This document shows positions 4,866-12,190 of a stretch of 44,618 nucleotides of DNA, piece by piece; positions within the stretch are counted from its first letter, which is position 1, and each line of letters opens with the position of its first letter. The translations under genes were made by a program, and so were the position numbers. A model generated the notes under the pieces. That model saw only the letters and a program-made list of their open reading frames with translations, was not told the DNA's origin and did not search any database. The stretch is from Methanobacteriota archaeon (GTDB lineage Archaea; Thermoplasmatota; Poseidoniia; Poseidoniales; Poseidoniaceae), in the NCBI GenBank assembly GCA_004195515.1, contig PSPR01000003.1, forward strand, positions 1 to 44,618, in the 5' to 3' direction.

Positions 4866-4894
4866 CAGATTTTAGAATCTGATTAATTCAGATT
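4864..4894 (-). terminator. Tandem overlapping hairpins at the end of tauE1 (candidate terminator/attenuator)
   Basis: ATCAGATT-TTAG-AATCTGAT (4864-4883, 8-bp perfect arms) overlaps AATCTGA-TTAAT-TCAGATT (4876-4894, 7-bp arms). The two are mutually exclusive and span the tauE1 stop codon. Confidence 0.4.
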
Positions 4895-5694
4895 ACAACG
4901 CCTATTATGTCCCATAAATATCGTGATAGACTTATACTAACTGCGACGATAAACACGGCTCGTATGATTTTTTCGGGGAGATATTTTATTGCAAATTTTG
5001 CTCCGATGAACGCGGATGCGAATGCGAGAAGTGGAAGGGTAATTGCGAGACCGACACCAGTGGTTTGAATTACTGCAGGGAGGGTTTGATCAAGAACAAT
5101 GTGGCTGATGAGTGCCATGGGTACGACAGCTGCGCCGATTAGATAAGATGTACCTGCCGCGGTTTTTGTGTCGAGTCCTGCGAGTCTGCGGTTGATTGTT
5201 ACAAAAATCGAACCACCACCGATTCCTAAGAGGCCGGCGGCTAGCCCGCCCAGGCCTGCAACTTTGCTATAGGTGGTCAAATCATCTGTTGATCCGGTGA
5301 TTGTGTCGGATGGTCGTAGATTTCGTTCGATGACATATACTAGAATCGCTGCAGCGAATATTTTGATGATGATGTCAGATATATATTCGAATGCTATCCA
5401 TGCGAGTAGTGTTCCAACGAATGCCATTGGTACCGCGGTAATTCTCCCCGCTCTGACCACTTTTGAATCCGAATAACCGCCCTTGCTGTGGGCAAAGCTA
5501 CTACCCAAGGCTACCATCCAAACCATCGATAAAGATCCGATTATTGCCTCTATTAATGGCCACCCATCGATATAATGTAAAATTGGAACAAATAAAACCC
5601 CACCGCCTAATCCTAAAGGGCTAAAGGTTAGAGCAACTAAGAGAATTAGGGTTATGACGATTAATTCGATATTATCACCTTCTTTTTCCTTCAA
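4888..5694 (-). CDS. TauE/SafE-family sulfite/organosulfonate exporter (copy 1)
   Basis: FSPLGLGGGVLFVPILHYIDG... and GLLGIGGGSIFVTI glycine-rich repeats with multiple TM helices, typical of TauE/SafE. Confidence 0.88.
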   Translation of the reverse strand: MKEKEGDNIELIVITLILLVALTFSPLGLGGGVLFVPILHYIDGWPLIEAIIGSLSMVWMVALGSSFAHSKGGYSDSKVVRAGRITAVPMAFVGTLLAWIAFEYISDIIIKIFAAAILVYVIERNLRPSDTITGSTDDLTTYSKVAGLGGLAAGLLGIGGGSIFVTINRRLAGLDTKTAAGTSYLIGAAVVPMALISHIVLDQTLPAVIQTTGVGLAITLPLLAFASAFIGAKFAIKYLPEKIIRAVFIVAVSISLSRYLWDIIGVVI

Positions 5695-5768
5695 TAATAA
5701 ATGTTGGTTTACTTCAAGTTTTTTGGCTAAGGGGATTAAGTCCTATAGGTGAGAACAGCCCATGAAAC

Positions 5769-8507
5769 TTATTCTTCCTCTTGATTCATATACCAATATT
5801 TCTTTTGCGGTGAAAGCGGCCGTTTCATCCAGAGTGGCCTACGTTCACCTCTCGGGTGGGTTTCTCTATCCTTGGCCATCTGGTTCCATTTTTTATAGTA
5901 TGCGAATGATTTCTCGGTATCGACCTCGACATCACCATATTCTTCTCCATCCTTTGGAGTTGAAAGCTTTACTTTTTGTAACCAACAATGATGCCCGCTG
6001 ATCGGGTCTGGCTGAACAGCATGAGTTATGTTTTGGTGGACTCCACCATCTCTCCAAAAAAGACGATTTGTGTCGGGGTCATCCGATTCGAATGGTTCGA
6101 TTCCAGCTACTGTTCGCATCCGCCATTTCCCATTCCCACGATTTTCAATCGAAACGGTATTCGTCATCATCCTATTTCCAGCATCTTGTTTGCGTCGCCA
6201 TCTACCAATATGGTGCGAACAGCCTACAACTCCAGGTTTGATGGCCTCGGTCACCCATACTTTATCTACAAACCAACCGATTTCGGTTTCGATTTTTAGT
6301 AATCCACCTTCCTCTACGCCTAGTTTATTTGCATCTTTTGGATGAATCCATATTGGATTTTTATGAGCTATTTCGACTAGCCATTTAGCATTTGCAGATC
6401 GCGAGTGTATGTGCATTGGTAGTCTAAAATTCGGGAGTAAACAAAACTCGTTTTCTCCTTGTAATTTGGACGGGTGAACCTGAGACATTACTCGGTAATG
6501 TGGTACAGCGTGTTCGGGGTAGCCGAATTCGATCATGGTGGGGGAATAGAATTCTTGTTTTCCAGAAGGTGTTGCCCAACCTTCTTTTTCATATTTTTTG
6601 TATGTCGCTTCTTCGATCAAGAATGCCCCGTGTTTCCTCATATAGCCCAGTGGATCGGTATCCTCGACCTCTGCTGCTTCAGGAAGTCCCGGCACTCTAT
6701 CGAAAATATAGCGATAATATTCGTCGATATTGATGGTTTCTCCTTCTCGATATGGGGACATGAAATGTTTCTTGATTCCCATCGAGCCATCCGGGTCAAT
6801 CTTCAAAGATAATTCGTTCCAGAATTCATCCTCTTCCCAAACCTCTCCCGGATTAACTTCGTGAGTAAACTCAACATCCTTGCCTTCTCGACGAGCAAAT
6901 TCTCGCAGAACTGGTTGTCGGAATGCGACCCACTTTCCTGATGATGTCGCATATGAATTGATGTCGTGGCGTTCGCTTGAATGCCCCATTGGGAGCACAT
7001 AGTCGGCGAAGAATGCGGTTTCGTTCCAAGTCGGTGTCATTGCGATGTGACACCCGACTTTTTCGGTATCATTGAGCATTTCAATCCAAGAGAATCCATC
7101 TGGGTATGTCCAAACCGGATTGAAAACACGGGTGAAATAAACATCCATCGATCCACGGCCATCTTTGATTAAATGTGGCAAGATATGGCTCATTTCAAAG
7201 TGGGACATAGTATATTCTGGTGGGAAATGTAATTCGTTCCAACCGGCAGGGTCAGGTGGGTTATCGAAAAATTCAGGTTTAAATTTCGACCATGAATTTG
7301 GAGAGGTGCCGCCTACAGTACCGACTGATCCAGTCAAGACATTCAAGAAGTGTAAGGAGCGGCTTACTTGCCATCCTCCGAGGTTTCCTATCGCTGCTGC
7401 ACGCCAAACATGAGTGCATAATTGAGTGCCGGAATTGGCGACGATTTCACCAACTTCGATAACTTGTTCCACAGGGATGCGGCATTCTTTTGCTGCAAAT
7501 TCGGGTGTATATTCTGCATATTCTTCTAGTAATAATTCAATGAATCTCTCAAAGGTTTGAGGTCCATCAGCATGTTCGATCTCAAGCCATTGTGCCCAAT
7601 TGACTTGGGTTTCCATAAATTCACGGTTATACAATCCCTTCTCGACGATCATCTTAGCCCAGCATAGGAATAATGCGGTTTCACTGCCAGGCCAAGTTGG
7701 AACCCAATGGTCTGCCATCGATGCGGTATTGGAAAGACGAGGGTCGATTACAATGAGTTTTGCTCCATCCATCATCCCCTCGAGGATTCTTTGTGCGTGT
7801 GGATTGAAATAGTGGCCGGTTTCAAGGTGAGAGGAACACAGAAGGATAACTTTTGCATTAGCATGGTCAGGGCTTGGCCTATCGTGGTGATGCCAAAGTG
7901 CGTATCCTAATCGCGCTCCAGCACTACAAATATTGGTATGCGAGTTGTGGCCATCTACTCCCCAAGCTTTGAGAACACGATTTGTGAAGCCTTCATGACC
8001 AGGTCGGCCGACGTGGTAGACGACTTTATCTCGGGCGCCAGTATTGAGGGAATCCCGAATTTTACTCGCAATCTCCTCCAAGGCTTGTGACCATGGAATT
8101 TGCTCCCATTTGCCATCTCCTCTTTTTCCAACCCTTTTCATCGGATGGAGGATGCGCTCGGTATCCTTGATCTGATTGATGGTTGCGGGTCCTTTTGCAC
8201 AATTTCTACCTCTGCTACCAGGATGGTGAGGGTTGCCTTCGAATCTGGCAACTTCTCCGCTTTCCTTGTCGACATATGCTAGCAGGCCACAAGCAGATTC
8301 ACAGTTAAAACAGGTTGTTGGGACTAGTGAGTAAATTTTCTCGACCTTTTTTGGCCAAGAATTTGCATCTAATTCAATATGGTTATTCCACTCTTCGAGC
8401 GATGGGTATTTCCTCAATGGCATCCGAGGGCCCTCGACTGGCTTTCGGTCGAGGTTGGGGATGATTCGGAGTTTTTGGGCGATGTTTTCAATGAATGTAT
8501 TTGCCAA
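5769..8507 (-). CDS. Molybdopterin oxidoreductase catalytic subunit (CISM/DMSO reductase superfamily; SoeA/PsrA-like)
   Basis: N-terminal TTCFNCESACGLL...GRNCAKG [4Fe-4S] motif; NICSAGARLGYALWHHHDRPSPDHANAKVILLCSS; C-terminal molydopterin dinucleotide-binding region. Likely TTG start at 8507 preceded by GAGGTGAT; the ORF-track start at 8573 overlaps the upstream gene. No twin-arginine motif at the N terminus. Confidence 0.9.
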   Translation of the reverse strand: MANTFIENIAQKLRIIPNLDRKPVEGPRMPLRKYPSLEEWNNHIELDANSWPKKVEKIYSLVPTTCFNCESACGLLAYVDKESGEVARFEGNPHHPGSRGRNCAKGPATINQIKDTERILHPMKRVGKRGDGKWEQIPWSQALEEIASKIRDSLNTGARDKVVYHVGRPGHEGFTNRVLKAWGVDGHNSHTNICSAGARLGYALWHHHDRPSPDHANAKVILLCSSHLETGHYFNPHAQRILEGMMDGAKLIVIDPRLSNTASMADHWVPTWPGSETALFLCWAKMIVEKGLYNREFMETQVNWAQWLEIEHADGPQTFERFIELLLEEYAEYTPEFAAKECRIPVEQVIEVGEIVANSGTQLCTHVWRAAAIGNLGGWQVSRSLHFLNVLTGSVGTVGGTSPNSWSKFKPEFFDNPPDPAGWNELHFPPEYTMSHFEMSHILPHLIKDGRGSMDVYFTRVFNPVWTYPDGFSWIEMLNDTEKVGCHIAMTPTWNETAFFADYVLPMGHSSERHDINSYATSSGKWVAFRQPVLREFARREGKDVEFTHEVNPGEVWEEDEFWNELSLKIDPDGSMGIKKHFMSPYREGETINIDEYYRYIFDRVPGLPEAAEVEDTDPLGYMRKHGAFLIEEATYKKYEKEGWATPSGKQEFYSPTMIEFGYPEHAVPHYRVMSQVHPSKLQGENEFCLLPNFRLPMHIHSRSANAKWLVEIAHKNPIWIHPKDANKLGVEEGGLLKIETEIGWFVDKVWVTEAIKPGVVGCSHHIGRWRRKQDAGNRMMTNTVSIENRGNGKWRMRTVAGIEPFESDDPDTNRLFWRDGGVHQNITHAVQPDPISGHHCWLQKVKLSTPKDGEEYGDVEVDTEKSFAYYKKWNQMAKDRETHPRGERRPLWMKRPLSPQKKYWYMNQEEE

Positions 8508-8517
8508 TTTAATCACC

Positions 8518-9924
8518 TCAAATAATTGATTCAATCTGCGGCTTTTGTACCACGTGATGGCCATGGTAGGCAAAAATTGCTAGGACTATTGCAGCAAATA
8601 GAATCATGATTGCATTGCCTATGAGAATCATCACAACGGCGCTGCCAATCGCTGTCGTTTCGAATAAGAACTTCCAAACTAACATTTTGTCTTTCGACCA
8701 AGAGCGGGCTTTGGCTTGTTGGAAAAGCCAAGCGGTGTAAATTCCGGTTAAGCACGCGAATGGAATTCCAATATATGCTAAATATATGAGTAGATTTTGG
8801 TCCAAATCAAAGATTAAAACCAATGTGGTTAGGGCTAAAATACCTCCAAAGCCAGAGATGATAACAGCGCCCTTAACCAACCATGAAGAGAAATTTGGTC
8901 TCAATAATACATAGAGGAATCTTTCAGGTCGGTCGAGATCTTTCACCAATAAGAGGCCGGTTAATGCGAGGAATCCGATTCCGATTCCAATTACTGGCCA
9001 CCATAGGTCGGCCATATCGAGATAACCGGCTAACCAAGCGATCATTGCGACCATGTAGGTGCCAGCGGCAACGGCTTTGGTCCAAATATAGGCACTAACT
9101 TCCCAGCCCCAAAGAATTCCTTTGGATGGCGCATCATAGGCTCTTTTTGCTTTTGGTGAAGTGTCTTGGAGTTTTTGTGCGACATCCCGAATGATAGCAG
9201 CATCTCGTGGTGCAGCATCCTTTGCCTTCATCTCCAATGCTAATTGAACCAACATTGAATGGCTATCAGATGCGCCAAGTCTTTGGTCAGCATATTTTGC
9301 AAAATGACCTACGCCGGCTGCTTGTTCGGACCACATATAGGATCCTGTGGCCTCGGTAGCGTTTGGATTTAGCATATCTTCTGAAGTATCTAAATAGTAA
9401 ACATTTGGAATTGTATTTGCCTCAGGTTTTCTTACTGTGGTTTCGTTTTCGGCTAATAAAACCGACAGATTTGATTCAGGGTCATGAAGATCGCCCGATA
9501 CGATTGCTTCAACCGGGCAAACGATAACACAAGCGGGCTCATATGAGTTCTCGATTCTGTGAGCACAATAATTACACTTTGCTGCTGTGCCATTGTTTGG
9601 GTCGATATATAGAGCGTCATACGGACACGCTTGCATGCAGGATTTACAACCGATGCAGCGCTCGTCATCGAAGTCGACAATTCCGTCGCTTCGGGTGTTG
9701 AGGGCACTGGTTGGGCAAATGGTAGTGCACGGGGCATCCTCACAATGGTTGCAGCGATGAACACTAAATTCACGGCTTGAATTGGGATAAACTCCAGTTT
9801 CGATATATTTGACGTGGGTTCGATTTACCCCTACAGGGACATCGTGTTCTGATTTACATGCGACGGTACAAGCATGGCAACCGATACATTTACGATTGTC
9901 TATTGCGAATCCGTAATTGACCAT
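8518..9924 (-). CDS. Fused 4Fe-4S electron-transfer subunit (DmsB/SoeB-like) plus NrfD/DmsC-like membrane anchor
   Basis: N-terminal CIGCHACTVACKSEHDVP, CNHCEDAPCTTICP, CIGCKSCMQACPYDA and CNYCAHRI...PACVIVCP cysteine clusters, followed by a hydrophobic C-terminal half starting WGWEVSAYIWTKAVAAGTYM. ATG at 9924 is preceded by GGTGAT; the track start at 9978 lies upstream. Confidence 0.88.
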   Translation of the reverse strand: MVNYGFAIDNRKCIGCHACTVACKSEHDVPVGVNRTHVKYIETGVYPNSSREFSVHRCNHCEDAPCTTICPTSALNTRSDGIVDFDDERCIGCKSCMQACPYDALYIDPNNGTAAKCNYCAHRIENSYEPACVIVCPVEAIVSGDLHDPESNLSVLLAENETTVRKPEANTIPNVYYLDTSEDMLNPNATEATGSYMWSEQAAGVGHFAKYADQRLGASDSHSMLVQLALEMKAKDAAPRDAAIIRDVAQKLQDTSPKAKRAYDAPSKGILWGWEVSAYIWTKAVAAGTYMVAMIAWLAGYLDMADLWWPVIGIGIGFLALTGLLLVKDLDRPERFLYVLLRPNFSSWLVKGAVIISGFGGILALTTLVLIFDLDQNLLIYLAYIGIPFACLTGIYTAWLFQQAKARSWSKDKMLVWKFLFETTAIGSAVVMILIGNAIMILFAAIVLAIFAYHGHHVVQKPQIESII

Positions 9925-9937
9925 ATCTATCACCGGT

Positions 9938-11062
9938 TTATTGTTGTGCAGCAGATGCTGCACATTGGTTTTTACCAATGTCCATTTCCTTTTGTTTACA
10001 CGAATCTGGGTTGATTACCCCAACATTCACCTTTCTAATTTCTGAATAAACATCTGGTTGAGGTTGCATATTATCTTTGATGAATTCGACAAAGGTGTTT
10101 TCATTATCGATTGAATAAATATTAGAATTTAATTCGATTATCTCTCCGAATGTTTTACCGATGACTCCATCGTTAAATTCCCGTTTCCAGCAAGAAAAAT
10201 GGCCAGGTAGAGTCATTAAATTATCGGGGAGGACAGTTATTTTTGTTTTCAAAGTATGATAGAGTTGTTTTGCCCATTCGACGACTTGTCCACCTAAATC
10301 AGGTCTGCCAATGCTCAAAATAAACACGGTATCTCCTGAGATCATCCATTTGTTATCGATGATAAATGTAGTTGAACCTGGTGTATGGCCCGGTGAGTGG
10401 ATTACTTGAACTTGATAGCCTCCACTCAATGTGAAAATCTCTTCATCGGCTAGTGAATAATATTCATATGCTGCCCATGAGAAATCTTCATCGTTAACAG
10501 CGTAAATAACATCTTCAAATTGTGGGCCGCCCGAGATGTAGTCGGCCTGAAGATGGGTCTCAAATACATGGGATATTTTCATCCCATTAGCGGCTGCGAA
10601 TTCATTATAAAACTCGACATTCCTTGAAGGGTCAAAGATGAACATCTCGTTTCCATGACCTAGAACATACGAACACGATCCTTTTGCAGGTCGGATAAAT
10701 TGCCATAAATTGTATCCATTTGAATGCAATCGGGTTGGCACCAATAGATCACCCCAAGTTTGGAAACCGTTTTCTAGATATGAAAGGTTTTGATAACCGT
10801 GGGATTCGAGGATAGTTGCTACGAAAACTGAAGATGATTCCTTTGCACAAATTATTTTCAATTCAATATCGGTGGGAACTTTTGCCAAACAGTTAGCTTC
10901 ATCCTCGATGAAATCAAAATATGGAATGTTAACAATTTCAAAATCACTCGGTCCTTCGACATGAGATTCATTAAAATCGGATTCGTTTCGAACATCGACA
11001 ACGAGAAAAACCTCGCCGTTCTTCATCGATTCAAACAATTCCAATGCGGTAAAACTCTCCAT
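9938..11062 (-). CDS. Rhodanese + metallo-beta-lactamase fusion, persulfide dioxygenase (ETHE1)-like
   Basis: N-terminal rhodanese-like domain with candidate active-site Cys (IICAKESSS). C-terminal MBL fold with ETHLQADYISGG, HSPGHTPGSTTFII, ISGDTVF and LPGHFSCWKREF. ATG preceded by GAGGT. Confidence 0.85.
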   Translation of the reverse strand: MESFTALELFESMKNGEVFLVVDVRNESDFNESHVEGPSDFEIVNIPYFDFIEDEANCLAKVPTDIELKIICAKESSSVFVATILESHGYQNLSYLENGFQTWGDLLVPTRLHSNGYNLWQFIRPAKGSCSYVLGHGNEMFIFDPSRNVEFYNEFAAANGMKISHVFETHLQADYISGGPQFEDVIYAVNDEDFSWAAYEYYSLADEEIFTLSGGYQVQVIHSPGHTPGSTTFIIDNKWMISGDTVFILSIGRPDLGGQVVEWAKQLYHTLKTKITVLPDNLMTLPGHFSCWKREFNDGVIGKTFGEIIELNSNIYSIDNENTFVEFIKDNMQPQPDVYSEIRKVNVGVINPDSCKQKEMDIGKNQCAASAAQQ

Positions 11063-11071
11063 AGATTTACC

Positions 11072-11587
11072 TCAGATGAATAATTGGATATCCGAATCTG
11101 CAGCAAAGTCAAGGAATGCTGCGGCACCACCATAACTAACGCCTTCTATGAATTCTTCTTTCTCAAATCCGAAAACATCCATTGTCATTTGGCAAGCGAT
11201 CAATTCGACGCCTAGCAGTTCACACATATCTCGCAATTCGGTTATAGTTGCAACGCCTTTGTTTTTGAAGGTCTTCTTCATCAAGCCGGTCGCGACACTC
11301 TCAAATCCAGGCATGTTTCCACTGATTGCATTCGGGATTGGCCAATTGATATTTTGGAAAAATTGTGGGCCAAACGGCATCTTCATCGGCATAGCCGGAT
11401 TTCCGGTAGGGGTGACTTTTGGATTGATTTTCTTTTTGAGAAGGGGGAGTCCGTAAAAGGTGAAGAATATCTTCACCTCCATATCCATAGCAGCGGCTGT
11501 AGAAGCGAGGATGAACGGGGGGTAAGCCCAATCAAGAGAGCCTTGGCTGGCTATAATTGCCATTTTCTTCTTTGGCTTTGCGACCAT
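11072..11587 (-). CDS. DsrE/DsrF-like (DsrE2-type) sulfur-relay protein
   Basis: KKKMAIIASQGSLDWAYPPFILASTAAAMDMEVKIFFTFYGLPLL ... LGVELIACQMTMDVFGFEKEEFIEGVSYGGAAAFLDFA, including the conserved C-terminal Cys. Start set at 11587, preceded by GAGGTGAG; the track ORF extends into tusA. Confidence 0.85.
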   Translation of the reverse strand: MVAKPKKKMAIIASQGSLDWAYPPFILASTAAAMDMEVKIFFTFYGLPLLKKKINPKVTPTGNPAMPMKMPFGPQFFQNINWPIPNAISGNMPGFESVATGLMKKTFKNKGVATITELRDMCELLGVELIACQMTMDVFGFEKEEFIEGVSYGGAAAFLDFAADSDIQLFI

Positions 11588-11588
11588 T

Positions 11589-11822
11589 TCACTCACCTCT
11601 TTCGATGTAGAAAAGGTACCCTTCATCTGTTTCTTCATTTGAAAGTAATTTATGGCCAACTCGTTCAGCCCAAGCAGGAATATCCTTGCAAGATCCAGGG
11701 TCGCTGGTAATTAATTTCAGAACTTTGCCAGCAGCCATAGTGTCAATTTTCATTTTTGTCTTCAAGACCGGCATTGGGCATTGCATGCCTTTGCAGTCAA
11801 TTGTTTCATCGTATAAAGTCAT
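11589..11822 (-). CDS. tusA: TusA-family sulfurtransferase
   Basis: DCKGMQCPMPVLKTKMKIDTMAAGKVLKLITSDPGSCKDIPAWAERVGHKLL: CPxP motif and typical length. Confidence 0.92.
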   Translation of the reverse strand: MTLYDETIDCKGMQCPMPVLKTKMKIDTMAAGKVLKLITSDPGSCKDIPAWAERVGHKLLSNEETDEGYLFYIERGE

Positions 11823-11823
11823 C

Positions 11824-12141
11824 TTAATCTCTCTCCTTCATTTCCTCTTGGGTTTTAACCAAGCAATCCAACATCTTGTGGACAAGTGGATTGGGTAGGG
11901 AATATTTCATCATATTTCCATCTCTTCGGCAACTCACAACTCCCTTGTCTTTCAAAAGGCGCAGGTGTTGTGAGGTAATCGGTTGAGTCAAATCGCACCA
12001 TTTGCTGATCTGGCCAACGTTTTTCTCGCCGTTTTGAATGTATTCTACAATAGCAATTCTATCAGCGTGTCCAAGTAATTTAATTATCTCGGAAACCTCT
12101 TTGACAAATTCTGGTTCAAGCCGATTTTGTACGTCTAACAT
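11824..12141 (-). CDS. ArsR-family winged-helix transcriptional regulator (copy 1)
   Basis: IIKLLGHADRIAIVEYIQNGEKNVGQISKWCDLTQPITSQHLRLLKDKGVVSCRRDGNMMKYSL. Confidence 0.9.
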   Translation of the reverse strand: MLDVQNRLEPEFVKEVSEIIKLLGHADRIAIVEYIQNGEKNVGQISKWCDLTQPITSQHLRLLKDKGVVSCRRDGNMMKYSLPNPLVHKMLDCLVKTQEEMKERD

Positions 12142-12165
12142 GTTCGTCCCCGCATCGGCTGTAAC

Positions 12166-12190
12166 TCAGGAATCATATAATGATTTCTGA
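12166..12190. promoter_or_regulatory. Candidate ArsR operator: 25-bp inverted repeat upstream of the sulfur operon
   Basis: TCAGgAATCATataATGATTtCTGA; 10 of 11 arm pairs match around a 3-nt centre. It lies 25-49 bp upstream of the arsR ATG and includes TATA-like sequence. Confidence 0.6.

Follow-up and report, generated by a model that had tools for sequence, protein, structure and literature searches.

What purpose a compact set of sulfur-handling and molybdoenzyme genes might serve in a marine planktonic archaeon is the question raised by a seven-gene locus, positions 4888-12141 on the minus strand, in a 44,618 nucleotide stretch (the window) from a genome of the Poseidoniales, the Marine Group II (MGII) archaea. 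The window is contig 71 of this genome, which is 1.92 Mb and 85% complete. The genes encode an ArsR-family regulator, the sulfur carriers TusA and DsrE2, a fusion of rhodanese and metallo-beta-lactamase (MBL) domains (RhoMBL), a fused iron-sulfur (FeS) and NrfD-type protein, a molybdenum (Mo) subunit, and a TauE permease, in the order ArsR-TusA-DsrE2-RhoMBL-FeS/NrfD-Mo-TauE. The answer suggested here is that this is very probably a cytoplasmic operon for the oxidation of sulfane sulfur to sulfite and then to sulfate, from which electrons would pass to respiration.

Two modules at one position

The strongest evidence for this role comes from other genomes of the order, where homologues were sought in two sets, 61 relatives and an even draw of 293 genomes. 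In one of these, G060 (L185 3301-14438, G060:C9), the order is ArsR-TusA-DsrE2-DsrE3-LbpA-Trx-HdrC1-HdrB1-HdrA-Hyp-HdrCB2-EtfB-EtfA-HdrD/EtfQO-FeS/NrfD-Mo-TauE, the GcvH-like, DsrE, HdrA, HdrB, and HdrC proteins being assigned by Pfam and NCBIfam profiles and EtfA and EtfB by visual inspection. G351 (L228 2395-13434, G351:C15) repeats this order as far as the Mo gene, with sHdr-LbpA complete, and G441 (L237 1-1771, G441:C111) has the first part only, ArsR-TusA-DsrE2-DsrE3-LbpA up to a contig end. Of the 61 relatives, G060 alone has an HdrB1 of high identity. The sHdr-LbpA cluster occupies the exact position of the rhodanese-MBL gene, between DsrE2 and the FeS/NrfD-Mo pair, and the search of the 293 genomes found no close rhodanese-MBL orthologue in G060 or G351.

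The operation of sHdr-LbpA leads to sulfite, and in known organisms this is a dissimilatory system (PMC10332631). In every surveyed cultured sulfur oxidiser with an hdr cluster of this type, soeABC was present as well (PMC6397845). Two unrelated modules that are both expected to convert sulfane sulfur into sulfite would feed the same Mo enzyme, and it is mainly because they sit between the same carriers and this enzyme that the latter is predicted to be a sulfite oxidiser.

In a genome of the same class and the other family, G063 (L046 4324-5463), a radical-SAM gene lies just downstream of the Mo gene; judged by eye only, it may be LipS1-like. Elsewhere, LipS1/S2 serve the sHdr lipoate protein.

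Identity of the molybdenum subunit

The Mo subunit is only about 23-27% identical to PhsA, TtrA, and DmsA (about 23% for PhsA), and homologues of 45-53% identity were found by plasmid searches in haloarchaea, Rhodococcus jostii, and Thermomicrobium. A genome scan returned more than 550 relatives, the best 80 of which are in Chloroflexota, Bacteroidota, Chlorobiota, Acidobacteriota, Planctomycetota, and others. Those bacterial relatives that were aligned are 53–63% identical to the window protein, with the Chlorobium homologues at 58-59%. On the contigs carrying these best 80, many of which are short, an FeS-NrfD protein adjoins in 70 cases, there is a match to the MBL-rhodanese query in 30, and DsrE2 is found in 9.

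In a tree made by a quick method, with SH-aLRT supports and with several long outgroup branches, the archaeal sequences of the taxonomic class to which the window belongs form one group (100) inside a bacterial and haloarchaeal clade (98, or 99 with Sulfurovum), Chlorobium included. PsrA/PhsA, ArrA, TtrA, DmsA/TorA, and the formate dehydrogenases were considered as identities for the subunit and rejected, as all of them, like NapA, fall outside this clade. The phylogeny that the sequence-only reading had proposed as a check therefore places the protein neither with formate dehydrogenases nor with the reductases of DMSO or tetrathionate.

The cysteines of the [4Fe-4S] cluster (Cys 66, 69, 73, and 103) are invariant in 30 of 30 Mo sequences, as is Cys194, which, from its position and knowledge of the family, we take to be the Mo ligand. 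As in SoeABC and PSRLC3, this is a MopB subunit with one [4Fe-4S] cluster and a Cys ligand to Mo. A structure model of the subunit (pLDDT 80) is nearest to ArrA and PsrA, with ArrA ranked first. In a survey of MopB proteins, SoeA and bacterial SreA form a large separate radiation, in which only 5 archaeal members were counted, and SoeA has a Cys ligand and is cytoplasmic (PMC10100899).

The arrangement in two genes is that of the PSRLC3 of green sulfur bacteria (PMC5473276), which has been described as an alternative sulfite-oxidising system (PMC6338057). Going by this two-gene architecture, the Chlorobium genes in these loci would be the published PSRLC3. The suggestion, made from the sequence alone, that the operon represents an undescribed system is not borne out, since the two-gene enzyme is widespread in bacteria and matches a described one.

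On a Sulfurovum mangrovi plasmid (L056 10001-13139), a homologue with a branch immediately outside the clade is broken across two frames and is unannotated in the record.

Membrane anchor and orientation

There is no Tat-like motif at the N-terminus of the Mo subunit, though the genome has TatC. The loops of the anchor carry a mean of 2.7, 3.7, and 1.9 Lys and Arg residues on the FeS side, against 0.3 and 0.1 on the other side; in E. coli DmsC and TtrC the bias is the other way round. On the basis of this charge bias, and of the missing Tat signal in a genome with TatC, the catalytic side is predicted to be cytoplasmic, as has been proposed for SoeABC (PMC8076601). The earlier claim of a cytoplasm-facing, Soe-like enzyme without a visible Tat motif is thus supported. 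A PsrABC, PhsABC, or TtrABC type of enzyme does not fit, as the Mo subunit is outside the PsrA/PhsA and TtrA clades and its sequence shows no signal for Tat export.

An AlphaFold model of the FeS/NrfD protein, of which only the membrane part was used because the FeS part was of low confidence (shallow alignment), has six confident C-terminal helices. This differs from the eight-helix NrfD-type anchor of SoeABC and PSRLC3. The bacterial and haloarchaeal FeS/NrfD fusions are longer, with about eight helices, and 66 C-terminal columns that are filled in most bacterial rows of the alignment are absent from the archaeal anchor. NrfD proteins have 8-10 helices in two bundles (PMC8076601). The model indicates that the first bundle, where the quinone site of other members is located, is kept in the archaeal anchor. 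The gene set read from the sequence alone, FeS/NrfD and Mo proteins with carriers and TauE, is supported by the domain assignments, with the refinement that FeS and NrfD are one fused protein from which two of the usual membrane helices are missing.

The rhodanese-MBL protein

The nearest solved relatives of this protein are the CstB-like 3r2u and the ETHE1 4chl. Its MBL motif is THLQADY (HxQxDY), in place of the canonical THxHADH (HxHxDH; HxHxDF in CstB), and this is invariant in all of the copies examined in the order, whereas the Rhodococcus, haloarchaeal, and Chloroflexota homologues carry TH.HADH. The TH, PGHTPG, and SGD motifs are kept, including the His, His, and Asp that, from knowledge of ETHE1, are presumably the ligands of a mononuclear iron. 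Retention of three iron ligands and loss of residues of the second metal site would be more in keeping with a mononuclear dioxygenase than with a binuclear hydrolase. All aligned homologues share two cysteines, that of the rhodanese domain and one in a C-terminal NxCA motif, the second of which may be a persulfide-carrying arm.

Distribution in the order

The Mo subunit is 74-82% identical in about 20 of the 61 relatives, in both families of the order, and among the 26 genomes of the same genus within this set it was found in only one other. Such patchiness would be expected of a gene prone to frequent loss or transfer. Among the 293 genomes, 80 have a match to the Mo subunit, 20 to DsrE2, and 18 to the rhodanese-MBL protein. 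All 20 DsrE2 loci are of this operon type, that of G168 being cut off before the Mo genes. With a strict cut-off, the Mo gene is present in 18 of the 20; of the other two, G391 has a Mo fragment at a contig end and G168 a RhoMBL fragment that starts at a contig end. The rhodanese-MBL gene and DsrE2 are together in 16 genomes by search, and in 17 with the G168 fragment.

The DsrE2 genomes are spread over 10 of 22 genera, and the order ArsR-TusA-DsrE2-RhoMBL-FeS/NrfD-Mo is repeated in relatives of two families. Fisher tests over the 293 genomes, which ignore relatedness, gave p~2e-9 for DsrE2 with Mo and p~8e-21 for RhoMBL with DsrE2. Recurrence of the gene order in two families and co-occurrence far above chance mean that the arrangement is not a chance one, and the co-conservation of the set in relatives, which had been called for as a check, is confirmed. 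TauE adjoins the Mo gene or stands elsewhere in the locus in many relatives, and in two haloarchaea it is just upstream of the FeS/NrfD gene.

The same order, TusA-DsrE2-RhoMBL-FeS/NrfD-Mo, is present in a Chloroflexota metagenome-assembled genome (MAG; L102 5745-12823). The set is not therefore particular to archaea, as had been supposed, and this gene order suggests that the operon, or parts of it, has probably moved between domains.

In G054 (L024 12168-12406, G054:C7), TusA is reduced to residues 4-54 and DsrE2 to 150-195, while the rest of the operon is complete; this looks like gene decay, with loss in progress. Molybdenum-cofactor genes were considered as a marker for the Mo enzyme and dropped as uninformative, since nearly all genomes of the order have MoaA (56 of the 61 relatives).

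Regulation

One Cys in the last helix of ArsR is invariant in 18 aligned ArsRs. ArsR-type repressors that respond to sulfane sulfur are known for sHdr and Sox genes (sHdrR, SoxR: PMC12423496, PMC10451225). Assignment to the two-Cys sensors of the BigR/SqrR/sHdrR type was rejected, the pair not being conserved in the 18 and the NF040642 score being 48.3 bits for a cut-off of 155. An inverted repeat just upstream of arsR, with 11 bp arms, one mismatch, and a 3 bp spacer, was matched in 4 of 500 shuffles of the 200 bp upstream region and might perhaps be an ArsR operator. It was discarded as a conserved operator, since it is not shared by the nearest relative, G455. Control by ArsR, as read earlier from the sequence, is consistent with the place of the regulator in the operon; control by a sulfur signal does not follow, given the unconserved cysteine pair.

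Proposed function and alternatives

From their families, TusA and DsrE2 would carry persulfide sulfur, which the rhodanese-MBL protein would take on its rhodanese Cys and oxidise with O2 to sulfite. The FeS/NrfD and Mo pair would then oxidise sulfite to sulfate on the cytoplasmic face, with electrons passing by way of the FeS clusters to a quinone at the membrane anchor. TauE would export surplus sulfite or another sulfur oxyanion, and ArsR might repress the operon until thiol-reactive sulfur species are present. In some relatives, sHdr-LbpA would replace the O2-dependent rhodanese-MBL step in place and make sulfite without O2. The tree, the co-conservation, the sHdr-LbpA swap, and the charge bias support the path from persulfide carrier to sulfite and to sulfate or export that the sequence-only reading had drawn, its individual reactions staying predictions.

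Several observations weigh against this role. In 62 of the 80 Mo-positive genomes there is no DsrE2 match, and many of these 62 loci consist of FeS/NrfD-Mo alone, with or without TauE, which would suggest that the Mo enzyme also works where sulfite has another source. The canonical MBL motif is replaced. The nearest outgroups in the tree were Sulfurovum and Azoarcus proteins, in place of a defined SoeA from A. vinosum or Aquifex. The orientation alone does not fix the reaction, because bacterial SreA, a cytoplasmic relative in the SoeA lineage, reduces sulfur (PMC10100899). All of the reactions, the regulation, and the direction of transport are predictions from the genes.

The same chemistry might instead serve detoxification, in which sulfane sulfur and sulfite arising from cysteine, sulfonate, or sulfide stress are disposed of and little energy is gained. 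This shares most of its mechanism with the oxidation proposed here and differs in role, TauE and the Mo enzyme being two ways of sulfite disposal; it is a real possibility that falls a little short of an even chance. The TauE gene and the ArsR-type regulator in the operon would suit it, as would the many relatives in which FeS/NrfD-Mo loci lack carriers and in some cases include TauE, the haloarchaeal loci with rhodanese-MBL, TauE, and Mo genes, and the description of MGII as heterotrophs with assimilatory sulfite reduction (PMC6336850). However, a quinone-linked NrfD anchor recovers electrons, which plain disposal of sulfite would not, and the full sHdr-LbpA of relatives is dissimilatory in known organisms (PMC10332631).

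It is unlikely that the Mo complex runs reductively, as a cytoplasmic polysulfide or sulfur reductase like bacterial SreA to which TusA and DsrE2 would deliver sulfur, although polysulfide reductase PsrA is, with ArrA, among the nearest solved structures and bacterial SreA belongs to the lineage of SoeA (PMC10100899). The Mo clade lies outside PsrA/PhsA, many of the relatives belong to groups that are mostly aerobic, the Saprospiraceae and haloarchaea among them, and the neighbouring genes should convert sulfane sulfur to sulfite, as sHdr is oxidative and persulfide dioxygenases need O2. Activity on arsenic or selenium oxyanions, which ArrA as the top structural match and the name of the ArsR family might call to mind, is very improbable: ArrA is outside the clade, no arsenic genes were seen in the operon or in the loci of relatives, and the ArsR family includes regulators of sulfur oxidation as well (sHdrR, SoxR: PMC12423496, PMC10451225). 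The oxidation of sulfane sulfur through sulfite to sulfate is preferred to these alternatives.

Layout of the operon

The gene coordinates confirm the seven minus-strand genes of the earlier reading, the first six about 1-13 bp apart and TauE after about 75 bp. With the most likely starts (ATG 11587 for DsrE2, whose mechanical open reading frame begins at 11659, ATG 9924 for FeS-NrfD, and TTG 8507 for Mo), the gaps are 1 bp (ArsR-TusA), 1 bp (TusA-DsrE2), 9 bp (DsrE2-RhoMBL), 13 bp (RhoMBL-FeS/NrfD), 10 bp (FeS/NrfD-Mo), and 74 bp (Mo-TauE). Domains were assigned by Pfam and NCBIfam profiles. The equivalog score of DsrE2 and its conserved ACQMTM cysteine place it in that family, and it is 73-77% identical to DsrE2 near Mo genes in Chlorobium-group loci.

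Upstream of the operon is a NAD-kinase-like gene, and downstream are an MscS channel and an HTH_10 regulator. These are excluded from the system because the flanking genes differ in the loci of relatives.

Features of the operon in the window
Feature	Position	Strand	Basis
ArsR-family winged-helix regulator, 105 aa	11824..12141	-	PF01022 (HTH_5) 40.5 bits; NF033788 70.3 bits, cut-off 55
TusA sulfur carrier, 77 aa, CPMP active-site motif	11589..11822	-	PF01206 90.8 bits; CPxP conserved
DsrE2 sulfur carrier, 171 aa	11072..11587	-	NF047629 212.5 bits, cut-off 210; PF13686 172.6 bits
Rhodanese-MBL fusion, 374 aa, candidate persulfide dioxygenase	9938..11062	-	PF00581 + PF00753, rhodanese first
Fused four-cluster FeS (PsrB-like) and NrfD-type membrane anchor, 468 aa	8518..9924	-	PF13247 (Fer4), PF03916
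Mo-bisPGD catalytic subunit, MopB, SoeA/PSRLC3-like, 912 aa from TTG 8507	5769..8507	-	PF04879, PF00384, PF01568
TauE/SafE permease, 268 aa, candidate transporter of sulfite or other sulfur oxyanion	4888..5694	-	PF01925 85.8 bits
Inverted repeat TCAGAAATCAT-TAT-ATGATTCCTGA, weak candidate ArsR operator	12166..12190	.	just upstream of arsR, overlaps TATA-like stretch

Significance

MGII have been described as photoheterotrophs, with assimilatory sulfite reduction as the only sulfur trait mentioned in that genome survey (PMC6336850). A full molybdenum-cofactor pathway was noted in another survey, from which the word sulfur is absent (PMC6461757). A literature search, with subscription papers outside it, found no earlier description of SoeA, sulfite oxidation, or sHdr in Poseidoniales/MGII, and no report of sHdr-LbpA clusters in this archaeal group. 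The chance is somewhat better than even that some of these archaea, abundant in the plankton of the surface ocean, are facultative sulfur oxidisers, plugging either an O2-dependent rhodanese-MBL protein or a complete sHdr-LbpA into one socket that has the TusA-DsrE2 intake on one side and a minimal sulfite:quinone oxidoreductase with a six-helix anchor on the other.

The operon would probably provide a client for the molybdenum cofactor of MGII and a way to draw additional electrons for respiration from reduced sulfur. The exchange of modules is strong genomic evidence for the role, in archaea and in many bacterial phyla, of the two-gene PSRLC3-type enzyme, which is widespread and little characterised. 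Two details are new here: an anchor predicted to have six helices, not eight, and an MBL motif HxQxDY where HxHxDH is canonical. The second NrfD bundle has been proposed to contribute to an ion path, and an anchor that lacks much of it offers a test of whether this bundle is needed for quinone reduction.

Comparison with known systems

In the sHdr-LbpA pathway, as would be the case here, TusA-DsrE carriers deliver sulfane sulfur, the product is sulfite, and a Soe-type enzyme lies downstream, but the window has a rhodanese-MBL protein and not an Hdr-like complex. With CstB and ETHE1 this protein shares the MBL domain (with rhodanese domains in CstB) and the His and Asp expected for mononuclear iron; it differs in its HxQxDY motif and in having the rhodanese domain first, not last as in CstB.

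The SoeABC of Allochromatium and Aquifex, which was compared by description, is similar in having a Cys ligand to Mo, an FeS part with four clusters, an anchor of the NrfD type, and a cytoplasmic catalytic side, and SoeABC also accompanies sHdr clusters (PMC6397845). It differs in that SoeB is not fused to SoeC, an eight-helix protein (PMC8076601). The pRHL3 cluster of Rhodococcus jostii RHA1 has the ArsR, rhodanese-MBL, DsrE2, TusA, FeS/NrfD fusion, and Mo subunit genes, but is divergently transcribed, with extra Mrp ATPase, MBL, and DUF202 genes, an eight-helix anchor, and the canonical HxHxDH motif.

PSRLC3 is likewise encoded by two genes (PMC5473276), and in the Chlorobium loci the FeS/NrfD fusion adjoins the Mo gene, with DsrE2 and TusA close by. 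The archaeal version differs in its six- rather than eight-helix anchor and in its place behind ArsR-TusA-DsrE2-rhodanese-MBL in one tight operon.

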